Positions 20,505 to 50,796 of a stretch of 64,000 nt of DNA are shown piece by piece. The notes beneath the pieces are model-generated. The model saw only the letters and a list, made by a program, of their open reading frames with translations, ran no database searches and had not been told where the DNA came from. Location: contig NZ_CAMXCM010000003.1 in assembly GCF_947179015.1 (NCBI RefSeq), positions 186,001 to 250,000 on the forward strand, read 5' to 3'. The first letter of the stretch is position 1, and each line of letters starts with the position of its first letter. Source of the stretch: Commensalibacter communis (GTDB lineage: Bacteria; Pseudomonadota; Alphaproteobacteria; Acetobacterales; Acetobacteraceae). Made by a program: the position numbers and the translations under genes.

Positions 20505-22781
20505 GTGGAAAATATATATCTTCCCACAGCATTAAGTGAAAGCGATCATATTGATTGCGAAGGTCTACTTAGACATATTCGTAAATATGATTCTGAATCA
20601 GATCTTTCACTTGTTGAAAAGGCGTTCCAAGTTGCGTTTAAAGCTCACGAAAAACAATTTCGTGACAATGGGGCGCCATATATTATTCATCCCTTGGCTG
20701 TTGCGAATATATTGGCACATCTAAGGGTTGATGTTACCTCTATTATTACAGGGTTACTTCACGATACAATCGAAGATACCGAGGTAACTCGAGAATTTCT
20801 TGAAAAAGAATTTGGCGTTGTTGTTGCGGACCTTGTTGATGGTGTAACAAAGTTAACGCGTCTTGAATTGCAATCAGATCGAACCAAACAAGCTGAAAAT
20901 TTTCGCAAGCTGGTGTTGGCGATGTCCAAAGATATCCGTGTTTTAATTGTGAAACTTGCGGATCGTTTGCACAACATGCGTACGCTACAATATGTGCAAC
21001 GCTTAGACCGTAAGCAACGGATAGCGCGCGAGACAATGGACATATATGCGCCATTGGCAGAGCGTATCGGTATGGATAATGTAAAAACCGAACTTCAGAA
21101 TATTGCCTTTGCTGTTTTAGAACCAGAAGGGGATGCTTCTATTCGAGCACGCCTAAACTATCTACGTGGTCAAGGGGCAGATATTGTTGAAGAGGTTTGT
21201 GCTGAATTAAAAGAGCTTTGTGAAAATTCGGGTTTAAGAAATGTCGATATCACTGGTCGCGAGAAATCTTGTTATTCTATTTGGGAAAAAATGAATAGAA
21301 GGCAAGTCGCTTTCGAACAATTATCCGATATTATGGCATTTCGTATTGTCGTTGGGACTAAAGAAGAATGCTACGCTGCTTTGGGTGTGGTGCATAGCAG
21401 TTATCCCGTTGTGGCGGGACGATTTAAAGATTATATCTCAGCTCCTAAGGCCAATGGGTATCAAAGTATTCATACGGGGGTTACGCTACGTCAACCGAGA
21501 AATCAACGTATTGAGATCCAAATTCGAACGCGTGAAATGCATGATATTGCCGAAAATGGTGTTGCGTCTCATTGGGTATATAAACAACTACCTGTTGTTG
21601 GTAAAGATCAAGAAAAACTTAACTCTAATGTTGCCGAAGTTGCACCCAAGTTTAAAAAGTTACGTTGGGTTCAAGATTTATTGGATATTTTAGAAGATTC
21701 AGCGGCACCAGATGAGTTTCTTGAAAATACCAAGTTAGAGCTTTATCAAGATTCTGTTTTTTGCTTTACGCCAAGAGGGGAATTGATACAGTTACCTCGT
21801 GGTGCCACACCAGTTGATTTTGCCTATGCAGTGCATAGCCAGGTTGGGGATCGTTGTGTTGGTGCTAAGGTTAATGGTCGGTTGGTTCCATTAAGAGAGC
21901 AGCTTCATAATGGTGCTCAAGTTGAAATTATGACTGCCAGAGAGGGAAATCCTTCTCCTTCTTGGGAACGATTTGTCGTAACGGGCAAAGCCAGAGCGCG
22001 CATTCGTCATTTTGTAAGTGGTCAGCAAAAAGCAATTAAGATCGAAGCTGGCCGCGTTGCTTTGGCAAAAGCATTTCGTCAAGAAGGGGTTGATGGATCA
22101 CAAAAAATTCTTGAAAATGTTTTGAAACCTTTGAAACAATCTTCTGTGACGGATTTATATGTCGCGGTTGGCAGTAACGCTTTATTAGCCAAAGACGTCG
22201 TTTATACCGCTTATCCAGAATTGCGGCCTACGAAAAGAGCGCCTCGTTTTGTGCCAGGCTTAAGCGAAAAGAAATCATCATCTTCTTCTGTATCCAGTAT
22301 GGGTGGACAACACCAGAATGTCATTCCTTTGAAAGGGATGGAAAAAGGCATTAGTGTTCATTTTGCGGGATGTTGCCACCCATTGCCTGGGGACGCAGTG
22401 GTGGGGATTGTCTCGACAGGCAAGGGGATTACCGTGCATCGTAAATCCTGTGCGATGTTAAGTAATTATGCTTCTATGCCGGAACGTTTTATGAGTATGG
22501 ATTGGGATTATGATATTCTGAGTCATGTTGATTCAAAGAAAAACTATGTGGGTCGAATTAAAGTTGTAGGCGAAAATAATTCCGAATTGTTGGCAAGTAT
22601 AACAAATCGTACGGCTCAGTATAATGGCAGTATTTTGAATTTGAAGATTTTGAATAGACATATCGATTTCATTGAAATCTTATTAGATCTTGAAGTGAAA
22701 GACGTTGAGCATTTGAATTCTTTGGTCTTGGGATTACAAGTTATCAAAGGTATTATTCACGTAGAGCGATCTGTGAGCTAA
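20505..22781 (+). CDS. spoT: Bifunctional (p)ppGpp synthetase/hydrolase (RelA/SpoT homologue)
   Basis: The 758-residue protein has all domains of a long RSH enzyme: the HD hydrolase with L-L-H-D-T-I-E-D-T near residue 85, the synthetase with P-K-A-N-G-Y-Q-S-I-H-T near 312, a TGS domain near 405-465 (V-F-C-F-T-P-R-G), a conserved Cys-Cys in the G-C-C-H-P-L-P-G zinc-finger-like region near 624, and a C-terminal ACT domain. The intact HD motif indicates it can also hydrolyse (p)ppGpp. It is the only RSH enzyme seen here, as usual in alphaproteobacteria (Rsh). The start is GTG with AGAAG upstream. acpS follows 12 bases later. Confidence 0.95.
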   Translation: MENIYLPTALSESDHIDCEGLLRHIRKYDSESDLSLVEKAFQVAFKAHEKQFRDNGAPYIIHPLAVANILAHLRVDVTSIITGLLHDTIEDTEVTREFLEKEFGVVVADLVDGVTKLTRLELQSDRTKQAENFRKLVLAMSKDIRVLIVKLADRLHNMRTLQYVQRLDRKQRIARETMDIYAPLAERIGMDNVKTELQNIAFAVLEPEGDASIRARLNYLRGQGADIVEEVCAELKELCENSGLRNVDITGREKSCYSIWEKMNRRQVAFEQLSDIMAFRIVVGTKEECYAALGVVHSSYPVVAGRFKDYISAPKANGYQSIHTGVTLRQPRNQRIEIQIRTREMHDIAENGVASHWVYKQLPVVGKDQEKLNSNVAEVAPKFKKLRWVQDLLDILEDSAAPDEFLENTKLELYQDSVFCFTPRGELIQLPRGATPVDFAYAVHSQVGDRCVGAKVNGRLVPLREQLHNGAQVEIMTAREGNPSPSWERFVVTGKARARIRHFVSGQQKAIKIEAGRVALAKAFRQEGVDGSQKILENVLKPLKQSSVTDLYVAVGSNALLAKDVVYTAYPELRPTKRAPRFVPGLSEKKSSSSSVSSMGGQHQNVIPLKGMEKGISVHFAGCCHPLPGDAVVGIVSTGKGITVHRKSCAMLSNYASMPERFMSMDWDYDILSHVDSKKNYVGRIKVVGENNSELLASITNRTAQYNGSILNLKILNRHIDFIEILLDLEVKDVEHLNSLVLGLQVIKGIIHVERSVS

Positions 22782-46647: not shown

Positions 46648-47248
46648 GTGAATTATTTAAATAAATTCAACAATAATTTATTAAAAAGTGGTAATAGTAT
46701 TATTTCTAGGATGGTTCAGATTATGTGGATAAACATGAAAAATACTTTTCGCTGGATACTTATGCTTGCATTAGGAAAATCTGAAGCGATTAATAAATTT
46801 CCTAACAGTTCAAATGCAGTTTTAAGAGCTATGCTTTGGCGGGTTGCTGGTATTTTTATTGTCTCTATTGGTTACATCTTTTATATTTTCTTTATTTAAT
46901 AATACAATTACTATTAGATTTTTTATTGCAGTTTTTTGTATAAATTTTGTTGTTTATTATTAATAGCTGTTTTTATTCATCTATGTGCAATATTATTAAA
47001 TAAAGAAGGTAATTGGAAAAAAAACGGTAACAGTTTTTTATTGGTGCGATTGGATTCTAAGTGTAGGGTATGTTGCGATTTTTATGATCGCTGGTTTACT
47101 TTTTGAGGAAAGATCTAATATTTCAGAGTCTTGGTCGGGCGTAGGTCAAATTTTACGCGAAATATATAGCCTTTGGTTAAATCGGGTTATTATTAAACAC
47201 GGTTTAAAGACAACTGTACCAAAAGCTATAGTCTTTTTTATATATTAA
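46648..47248 (+). pseudogene. Decayed tandem copy of the upstream membrane-protein gene
   Basis: The first 83 codons are open and repeat the upstream gene's start: L-A-L-G-K-S-E-A-I-N-K-F-P-N-S-S-N-A-V-L against L-G-R-G-K-R-E-G-I-H-E-F-S-N-S-S-D-S-V-L. After a stop at 46897-46899 the homology resumes in other frames: L-L-N-K-E-G-N-W-K-K, then V-F-Y-W-C-D-W-I-L and M-I-A-G-L-L-F, then S-L-W-L-N-R-V-I-I-K-H-G-L-K-T-T-V, ending at TAA 47246. The counterparts are N-N-E-A-N-W-K-Q, L-W-C-F-W and I-A-G-L-F-F, S-I-W-L-S-W-F-V-I-K-V-G-L-Q-T-T. At least two lesions disable it; a short peptide from the first part could still be made. Confidence 0.85.
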
Positions 47249-49775: not shown

Positions 49776-49804
49776 CTTGCATATTTCAGTATTTTTCTCA
49801 TATT
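49776..49804 (+). promoter_or_regulatory. Possible heat-shock (RpoH) promoter of hsp20
   Basis: CTTGCA and CATATT are separated by 17 bases, near the alphaproteobacterial sigma-32 pattern (CTTG, then CATATA-like). A transcript starting here would carry a leader of about 65 bases that contains the ROSE-like hairpin. Confidence 0.45.
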
Positions 49805-49815
49805 ATAGATAATAG

Positions 49816-49875
49816 TAAGTGCCATTGTGGGCTTATTTCGTTATGTCTCGCTCATAAAAAAGGAGGAGGCTTTTC
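49816..49875 (+). ncRNA. ROSE-type RNA thermometer in the hsp20 leader
   Basis: GTCTCGCTC (49845-49853) can pair with GAGGAGGC (49863-49870), which contains the Shine-Dalgarno sequence, leaving one G (49850) bulged. TCGCT inside the first arm is the U-Y-G-C-U anti-SD motif that defines ROSE elements, where the bulged G makes the stem melt at heat-shock temperature. A second hairpin (TAAGTGCC with GGGCTTA, 49816-49835, one bulged G) lies just upstream, as in known ROSE leaders with several stem-loops. The ATG follows at 49876. Confidence 0.75.
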
Positions 49876-50409
49876 ATGTCAGGAAGGCTTTTTACGTCGC
49901 CTATGTTCCTGGGCTTTGACCATTTGGAACAAATTTTGGAACGTGCGGCTAAATCCACATCAGATGGATATCCGCCGTATAATATTGAACAACTTGATTC
50001 TTCAAGTCTGCGTATCACGTTGGCGGTTGCTGGTTTTATGATGGAAGATTTGCAAATCACCCAAGAAGATAACCAGCTCGTCATACGAGGAAGGCAATGT
50101 GAAGATACGACACAAGAACGCGTATTTTTATATCGAGGGATCGCAGCACGACAATTTCAACGCGCCTTTGTGCTAGCAGAGGGGATAGAAGTAGAAAGTG
50201 CTTGGCTTGATAATGGATTATTGCATATTGATATTCGTCGTCCGCAACCAGAAATGAAAGTTCGACGGATTGAAATCATACAAAATTCAGCTGCTCGTAA
50301 AAAGACAGCGCCTAAAGTTCCTGCGTATAAAGGAAATTTCACCGACGGGAGTCGTTCAGAGCGTTCTGGTTTGGAAAGAAATATCCAGACAATTGAAAAA
50401 GATAGATAA
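49876..50409 (+). CDS. hsp20: Small heat-shock protein (Hsp20/IbpA family)
   Basis: The 177-residue protein starts with F-T-S-P-M-F-L-G-F-D-H-L-E, the start typical of proteobacterial IbpA-like proteins. The alpha-crystallin domain spans about 35-130: P-P-Y-N-I-E, L-R-I-T-L-A-V-A-G-F near 53, then the closing strand G-L-L-H-I-D-I near 115-121 and an I-x-I-like tail. It binds unfolding proteins and hands them to DnaK/ClpB. Expression is likely heat-controlled twice, by the upstream promoter and by the ROSE hairpin over its ribosome-binding site. The Lys/Arg-rich C-terminus is longer than in E. coli. Confidence 0.93.
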   Translation: MSGRLFTSPMFLGFDHLEQILERAAKSTSDGYPPYNIEQLDSSSLRITLAVAGFMMEDLQITQEDNQLVIRGRQCEDTTQERVFLYRGIAARQFQRAFVLAEGIEVESAWLDNGLLHIDIRRPQPEMKVRRIEIIQNSAARKKTAPKVPAYKGNFTDGSRSERSGLERNIQTIEKDR

Positions 50410-50478: not shown

Positions 50479-50745
50479 ATGAGTGATCAAACGGCAAATG
50501 ATAAAACCAAGTTGATTGCAACCAAAGAAGATGACAATAACGTAGATATTCGTGATTTGACCGAGGGGCAGCTTAAAGCATTAGGAGTCAGCCAAATGGC
50601 CTATGTAAAAATAGTCATCATTAATGGTGAAGAGGTTTTTGCAATCCATGCAGCTGATGGCACACCCATGGCGGTTGCAGACAATGCCAAGACAGCATTT
50701 GCAGCCATTGTCCAGCACGAAATGATGCCAAGTTTCGTAAATTAA
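50479..50745 (+). CDS. DUF1150 family protein
   Basis: I start at ATG 50479, eight bases after AAAAGGA; upstream in-frame codons reach 50437. The 88-residue product has the DUF1150 core: D-L-T-E-G-Q-L-K-A-L-G-V-S-Q-M-A-Y-V-K near residues 26-43, then the A-I-H-A-A-D-G-T-P-M-A-V-A-D-N strand-helix. DUF1150 genes lie next to hsp20 in alphaproteobacteria, and the same pairing here supports the call. Function is unknown; a role in the heat-shock response is guilt by neighbourhood. Confidence 0.88.
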   Translation: MSDQTANDKTKLIATKEDDNNVDIRDLTEGQLKALGVSQMAYVKIVIINGEEVFAIHAADGTPMAVADNAKTAFAAIVQHEMMPSFVN

Positions 50746-50766: not shown

Positions 50767-50796
50767 AAAAAAGGAGGATTTCATGTCCTCCTTTTT
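50767..50796 (+). terminator. Bidirectional Rho-independent terminator
   Basis: AAAAAGGAGGA pairs perfectly with TCCTCCTTTTT across TTTCATG. It ends hsp20-DUF1150 on the plus strand and the hpf gene on the minus strand. Confidence 0.9.

Follow-up and report, generated by a model that had tools for sequence, protein, structure and literature searches.

The hsp20 gene of Commensalibacter communis, which encodes an IbpA-type small heat-shock protein, very probably carries a short two-hairpin ROSE-like RNA thermometer in its mRNA leader. The element is a family-wide addition to the ROSE-like thermometers in the Acetobacteraceae, ordinary in kind and missed by the Rfam models. It lies in a 64,000-nucleotide stretch (hereafter the window; G000:C3:186001-250000 of the Commensalibacter genome), where it had been proposed by a first-pass annotation. 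The clpB leader and a bulged-G hairpin shared among chaperone leaders are described here as new leads, with functions predicted from sequence comparison.

The hsp20 gene and its leader

The hsp20 gene (49876..50409, + strand, ATG at 49876) encodes a 177-aa product that matches the HSP20 Pfam family (9.9e-17) and the NCBIfam IbpA model (3.6e-36, yet under the equivalog cut-off). The product shares 50% identity with Escherichia coli IbpA over 131 columns, and the nearest named Hsp20 among the matches listed is that of C. intestini A911 (95% identity). A DUF1150 gene (50479..50745, + strand; Pfam PF06620, 1.1e-11) lies directly downstream and is possibly co-transcribed with hsp20. Between the DUF1150 gene and a converging HPF/S30AE-like gene, a terminator-like inverted repeat (AAAAAAGGAGGA..TCCTCCTTTTT) is found at 50767-50796.

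A sigma32 (RpoH)-type promoter, CTTG - 17 nt - CTCATAT, was located by pattern match at 49776..49803 (+ strand), with the sigma32 consensus as given in the passages of PMC3669281 consulted. The pattern CTTG-N16-18-CYCATAT has a single match in the 64-kb window on both strands. A promoter-like site is present in 42 of 84 distinct hsp20 leaders under a stricter pattern and in 72 of 84 under a looser one, the latter as a raw count. Transcription of hsp20 would then start at about 49810, which would give a leader of about 66 nt.

The leader contains two hairpins on the + strand. Hairpin I (49816..49835; TAAGT[G]CCA-TTG-TGGGCTTA, with bulged G49821) was defined by folding and by covariation in alignment A1, described below. 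Hairpin II (49845..49870; GTCTC[G]CTC-ATAAAAAAG-GAGGAGGC), the putative ROSE-like thermosensor, was defined by folding, by the alignment and by a covariance model match at 49798-49878. Read directly, hairpin II consists of GTCTC[G]CTC at 49845-49853, a loop at 49854-49862 and GAGGAGGC at 49863-49870, and its pairs are G-C, U.G, C-G, U-A, C-G, the bulged G49850, C-G, U-A and C-G. The Shine-Dalgarno (SD) sequence GGAGGAGG (49862..49869, + strand) has seven of its eight bases paired within hairpin II. Its AGGA (49864-49867) lies opposite UCGCU (49848-49852), in which the G (49850..49850, + strand) is unpaired, the facing that is characteristic of ROSE-like elements. Each of the two hairpins thus has one unpaired G, on the 5' arm.

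The ROSE-like class is defined by a terminal hairpin in which the SD sequence is imperfectly paired to U(U/C)GCU (PMC3669281 and PMC12857270, both drawn on in part), and ROSE-like motifs are known before other genes too (PMC11342760). The hsp20 leader also has the further ROSE-like features of an additional stable 5' hairpin and a small heat-shock gene downstream, and by motif and layout it is classed as a short two-hairpin ROSE-like element. The motif, the bulged G and the facing of the SD sequence claimed in the first-pass annotation were confirmed by this direct reading, and they are conserved in the family and, beyond it, at part of the matched loci. Of the "extra upstream hairpins" in the same annotation, one is present and conserved (hairpin I), not several. 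The facing strand, GUCUCGCUC, does not carry the four U opposite the SD sequence that distinguish fourU thermometers.

Complete hairpin II appears in the minimum-free-energy fold of three of the four stretches folded; the fourth (49800-49890) extends into codon 5, and there another helix takes the place of the two outer pairs of hairpin II. When the first codons are folded in, an alternative helix of 49864-49875 with 49882-49893 (codons 3-6) is predicted in C. communis, which would occlude the SD sequence instead.

Conservation and relation to known ROSE elements

Hsp20 matches were found in 293 of 299 family genomes. The leader set comprises 110 Hsp20 loci, the window's own included, made up of the best 30 of the 293 matching family genomes and 80 other loci. 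These are the closest Hsp20 relatives rather than a random draw, several come from the same strain, and 84 are distinct at 75 nt (distinct totals of 84, 85 and 86 vary with the leader length used). TCGCT occurs within 60 nt of the start in all 110 leaders, against 0.067 expected per 60 nt, and all four ROSE-type positions are paired in 85 of 85 distinct leaders.

Alignment A1 was built from 43 of 50 non-redundant leaders, with seven from Commensalibacter held out. RNAalifold on A1 returned exactly hairpins I and II. Standard pairs fill 94.9% of the cells, compared with 82.9% in shuffles and 45-57% when the structure is slid along the alignment. Compensatory (both-sided) changes number 94 cells versus 33.0 in shuffles, and none of 500 shuffles scored as high. 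Nearly all of this covariation is held by hairpin I, in which five outer pairs have 11-18 both-sided changes each. Hairpin II is paired in 99.4% of cells with a single both-sided change, because the SD sequence is nearly invariant, and its support therefore consists of conservation and one-sided, pair-keeping changes. At each of the two bulged positions, all 43 rows have G.

A covariance model, R1, was built from the 43 A1 rows and thus contains no Commensalibacter sequence; its calibration was shortened and its E-values are rough. In the 64-kb window R1 recovered the held-out hsp20 site (49798-49878) with 48 bits and E=6.5e-15. The sole other window match, at 46810-46871 (7.5 bits, E=0.74), was taken as chance. 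With default filters R1 matched seven of nine Commensalibacter genomes, the two misses (C. melissae-like, with a longer loop) being matched only with filters off, and with filters off it matched 10 of 10 Commensalibacter loci, some of them from the same strain. Two weaker matches in the genus scored 12.1 and 11.6 bits. A further match (G040:C1:1420020-1420085, 18.3 bits) lies antisense inside a 488-aa reading frame resembling a peptidase and was rejected as chance.

When R1 was run on 289 genomes of the class, 37 were matched at E<=0.01 with strict filters. Among 28 loci inspected in other families, 15 directly precede an Hsp20 gene, whose products are 57-65% identical to the window protein in 11 cases and 38-49% in four. 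Three others (L129, L136 and L139) precede a clpB-like gene; that of L129 was confirmed by a TIGR03346 match (G316:C58:7941-10490), and those of L136 and L139 were called from N-terminal sequence alone, by eye. L129 and L136 have a second bulged-G hairpin about 24 nt before the ATG. At the remaining 10 loci, which are probably chance matches, neither an Hsp20 gene nor clpB follows.

The Rfam ROSE models gave a different result. Neither RF00435 nor RF01832 matched the hsp20 element at the gathering score (at least 45 and 65 bits, respectively) or at E<=10, and E. coli ibpA, the positive control, scored 100.4 bits with RF01832. No ROSE was found at hsp20 or at the clpB, groES and dnaK leaders of the same genome when the window, a set of 20 loci and additional loci were scanned with Rfam. 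The first-pass annotation had named the lack of a ROSE covariance hit as an outcome that would count against it. That outcome was obtained, and we do not take it as a refutation because the Rfam models are longer (RF00435) or enteric (RF01832) and the model built from relatives matches strongly.

In layout, the hsp20 element is closest, as judged from sequence, to E. coli ibpA and the two-hairpin elements of Pseudomonas. ROSE_2 (RF01832, the E. coli ibpA leader) likewise has two main hairpins, a bulged G in the 5' arm of hairpin I, UCUCGCU facing AGGAG and an IbpA gene downstream, but its loops and outer stems differ, as does the SD sequence from that of C. communis. The short ROSE-like elements of Pseudomonas ibpA, as described in passages of PMC3669281, share a leader of about 60 nt, a sigma32 promoter, a stable hairpin I and a short SD hairpin with U(U/C)GCU and an unpaired AUG; they belong to another bacterial class, and the likeness is drawn from layout, not from the sequence of hairpin I. 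According to the same passages, these two-hairpin elements work and the SD hairpin melts with temperature. RF00435, which models the thermometer found with small heat-shock genes in rhizobia, shares a hairpin I with a bulged G (model consensus CCGGCC-G-CC...GGGGCCGG) and UUGCU opposite AGGA, but has an additional middle hairpin and a long SD stem that includes the start codon. Both Rfam ROSE models also place one bulged G in the 5' arm of hairpin I, as in the hsp20 leader.

RF00435 elements do occur in the Acetobacteraceae, in 13 of 120 genomes over the cut-off and 18 of 120 at E<=1 (strict filters), and none was matched in the C. communis genome at E<=1 with strict filters. In 10 of 12 such loci inspected (L111-L122; UUGCU), the gene that follows is another Hsp20 paralog, with 38-45% identity to the window protein; the script used detected no Hsp20 at the remaining two. 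Two genomes (G042 and G085) contain both an hsp20 ortholog and an RF00435 locus, on different contigs, so that two kinds of ROSE coexist there. On the hsp20 element in the Acetobacteraceae, a search mainly of open-access literature found PMC5756330 alone among the papers listed, which in the part consulted gives an Rfam-predicted ROSE of 84 nt before the Hsp20 gene GOX_RS07835 of Gluconobacter oxydans 621H. This gene is probably the RF00435-bearing paralog, since its element is 84 nt long and was found by RF00435. At the hsp20 ortholog locus of G. oxydans NBRC 14819 (L045), RF00435 gave no match. A survey of alpha- and gamma-proteobacterial ROSE elements was reportedly made in 2005, and an earlier prediction of the hsp20 element may exist.

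Proposed temperature response and alternative readings

As a thermometer, the leader would work as follows. Transcription from the sigma32 promoter would yield an hsp20 mRNA with a leader of the length given above. At growth temperature hairpin II, a structure favored by the comparison of relatives, would keep the SD sequence paired to UCGCU with one G unpaired. By analogy with ROSE-like elements tested elsewhere, heat would open the weakened helix around the bulged G, allowing ribosomes to bind and Hsp20 to be made. Hairpin I would be a stable 5' element that aids folding or message stability, and it may also be the site at which Hsp20 binds to repress its own message. The unpaired share of the SD sequence predicted by ViennaRNA is 0.21 at 20°C, 0.19 at 37°C and 0.28 at 55°C, and that of the E. 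coli ibpA control is flat too (0.13 at 25°C and 0.10 at 45°C). Melting in the energy model is thus a powerless test, because a known thermometer does not open in it either.

Three other readings were weighed against the thermometer. That the motif arose by chance in an A+T-rich leader is hardly credible. Its folding energy is indeed unremarkable relative to shuffles (z of -0.6, -0.9, -1.1 and +0.1 for the four stretches), but this reading is already contradicted by family-wide conservation with covariation and by the match of R1 to a held-out site. Chance is far exceeded through conservation, not through folding energy, as the comparison of related sequences indicates, and the first-pass judgement that chance was unlikely is borne out by TCGCT in 110 of 110 leaders and by the E-value of R1. 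Very improbable, too, is a static hairpin that hides the SD sequence, lowering basal translation only and leaving regulation to sigma32. In favor of this reading, hairpin II has a fair stability of -8.7 kcal/mol at 37°C (-7.5 when trimmed, versus -4.6 for the E. coli ibpA hairpin trimmed in a similar way), and the gene has a sigma32-type promoter, but the thermosensing hairpins of Pseudomonas reach -4.1 to -7.6 kcal/mol in the passages of PMC3669281 consulted, near hairpin II, and an invariant bulged G (43 of 43 rows) would be unexpected for mere hiding.

Somewhat less improbable, though still unlikely, is a leader that responds mainly to protein: Hsp20 would bind its own leader and keep translation blocked until drawn off by misfolded clients, with the hairpins as the putative binding site and direct melting as a secondary effect. 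E. coli IbpA represses its own translation via the 5' UTR, with R93 essential and a contact by Y34 proposed (PMC10474464, in part), and the corresponding residues of the window protein are R92 and Y32; the conservation of these two residues makes Hsp20 feedback possible. The invariant bulged G of hairpin I fits such binding, and the function of the 5' hairpin is called "not fully understood" in a passage of PMC3669281. According to the portion of PMC10474464 consulted, however, self-repression has been demonstrated only in gamma-proteobacterial IbpAs and is a suggestion for those of alpha-proteobacteria, and the facing of UCGCU and AGGA is the signature of a thermometer. The ROSE-like thermometer accordingly remains the preferred reading of the hsp20 leader.

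Other chaperone leaders and significance

The clpB leaders of the Acetobacteraceae display the same tandem design as hsp20, with CCGUY[G]CCU...AGGGGCGG as the upstream hairpin and GUC[G]CCU...AGGGAC as the SD-proximal one, just before the ATG. The C. communis clpB leader (G000:C12 ~21499-21580; L161 1417-1439 and 1456-1479) contains two bulged-G hairpins, the second of which (TTGTC[G]CCT..AAGGGACAA) hides the SD sequence. For the family set, 62 loci were taken (at least 94 family genomes match), and the 10 lacking a recognised start were dropped to leave 52. The SD-proximal hairpin was found in 46 of these 52 leaders (100 shuffles: mean 3.3, maximum 9) and the upstream hairpin likewise in 46 (100 shuffles: mean 7.1, maximum 14). 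All four ROSE-type pairs opposite the SD sequence are present in 44 of 52 clpB leaders; among SD-bearing starts of control genes the figure is 13 of 125. In alignment A2 (48 of the 52 leaders, near-duplicates removed), 84.9% of cells pair compared with 78.2% in shuffles, and both-sided changes amount to 49 cells versus 16.2, mostly in the upstream hairpin.

The clpB design is much weaker outside the Acetobacteraceae. A covariance model of the clpB leader, R2, was trained with five Commensalibacter rows, including the C. communis genome, so its matches in that genus are not independent. Within the class R2 matched five of 240 genomes, three of which are Commensalibacter; one match outside that genus (G342:C10:477-537) lies directly before clpB (G342:C10:550-3105). 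In the class clpB set (25 leaders kept, six of 31 dropped) the SD-proximal bulged-G hairpin was found in six of 25 leaders, at chance relative to shuffles (mean 1.7, maximum 6). No clpB thermometer was recognised in the literature searched, namely listings, abstracts and passages of PMC13104619, PMC3989490, PMC10474464 and PMC3669281. If clpB is translated under thermometer control, one and the same RNA device would act as the switch for both the disaggregase and the small heat-shock protein.

A hairpin whose 5' arm bears a single bulged G was counted in 83 of 84 hsp20 leaders, 47 of 52 family clpB, 21 of 25 other-family clpB, 21 of 30 dnaK and 19 of 30 groES leaders. The background figures were 95 of 399 for random stretches and 72 of 384 for the starts of other genes; the chaperone sets are phylogenetically non-independent and the control starts were found mechanically. 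The groES and dnaK sets are the best 30 loci of 38 and 36 matching genomes, respectively. Other bulge types are near background in hsp20 and dnaK leaders. G bulges in the 3' arm are raised in clpB (26 of 52 in the family and 12 of 25 outside) and groES (16 of 30) versus 96 of 399 random stretches, as are other bulges in groES (5'-arm C, 16 of 30; 3'-arm A, 19 of 30), a mixed signal that we presume may come from the CIRCE repeat. A bias towards the 5' arm would point to a signal in RNA and not in DNA, and because of these 3'-arm G bulges it is clean only for hsp20 and dnaK.

Of the 30 dnaK leaders (L290-L319), 28 contain the motif Y-G-C-Y...GGG-Y, from which a bulged-G hairpin can form. In the C. 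communis dnaK leader (L315: 1450-1466 and 1472-1490, start 1495), UUGCU lies opposite AGGA at the SD sequence, and full facing of this kind is not conserved across the dnaK leaders of the family. At least three of the four ROSE-type pairs are found in 19 of 29 SD-bearing dnaK leaders versus 23 of 125 controls. All four occur in only four of 29, a share similar to the 13 of 125 of the controls, and for now dnaK is rejected as a carrier of a full ROSE-like SD element. For groES, SD facing was found in one of 20 leaders, no better than the control. The C. communis groES leader (L261 1444-1472, start 1495) reads ATAATGCT[G]CTT..AAGGGCATTAT, and 12 of 30 groES leaders (L260-L289) contain GGAGCGATCC, a small hairpin over the SD sequence itself.

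It is conceivable, if on balance doubtful, that the main chaperone mRNAs of the Acetobacteraceae, and partly of the Alphaproteobacteria, share a promoter-proximal hairpin with a bulged G in the 5' arm, a second copy of which in clpB would hide the SD sequence as a ROSE-like thermometer. Such a shared mark may couple translation or stability to heat and perhaps to free Hsp20, through mRNA binding of the IbpA type. In E. coli, other heat-shock mRNAs are also targets of IbpA. The idea is made slightly less likely by the raised 3'-arm G bulges in clpB and groES and by how little R2 finds outside the family.

The first-pass suggestion that the hsp20 sensor responds to temperature change in an insect host is unsupported. 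The element is also present in Acetobacter, Gluconobacter, Gluconacetobacter, Novacetimonas and MAGs named for palsa or pasture, and several of the genera that carry it are of vinegar and plant habitats, so general control by heat shock is the more economical explanation. In a bacterial family of vinegar makers and insect-gut inhabitants, the core hsp20 gene appears to have a ROSE-like leader that escapes Rfam, which means that surveys based on Rfam undercount such sensors. The purpose of the conserved first ROSE hairpin also becomes testable: its bulged G is as invariant as that of the thermosensor, and the leaders of clpB and dnaK and, less cleanly, of groES are enriched in hairpins like it.
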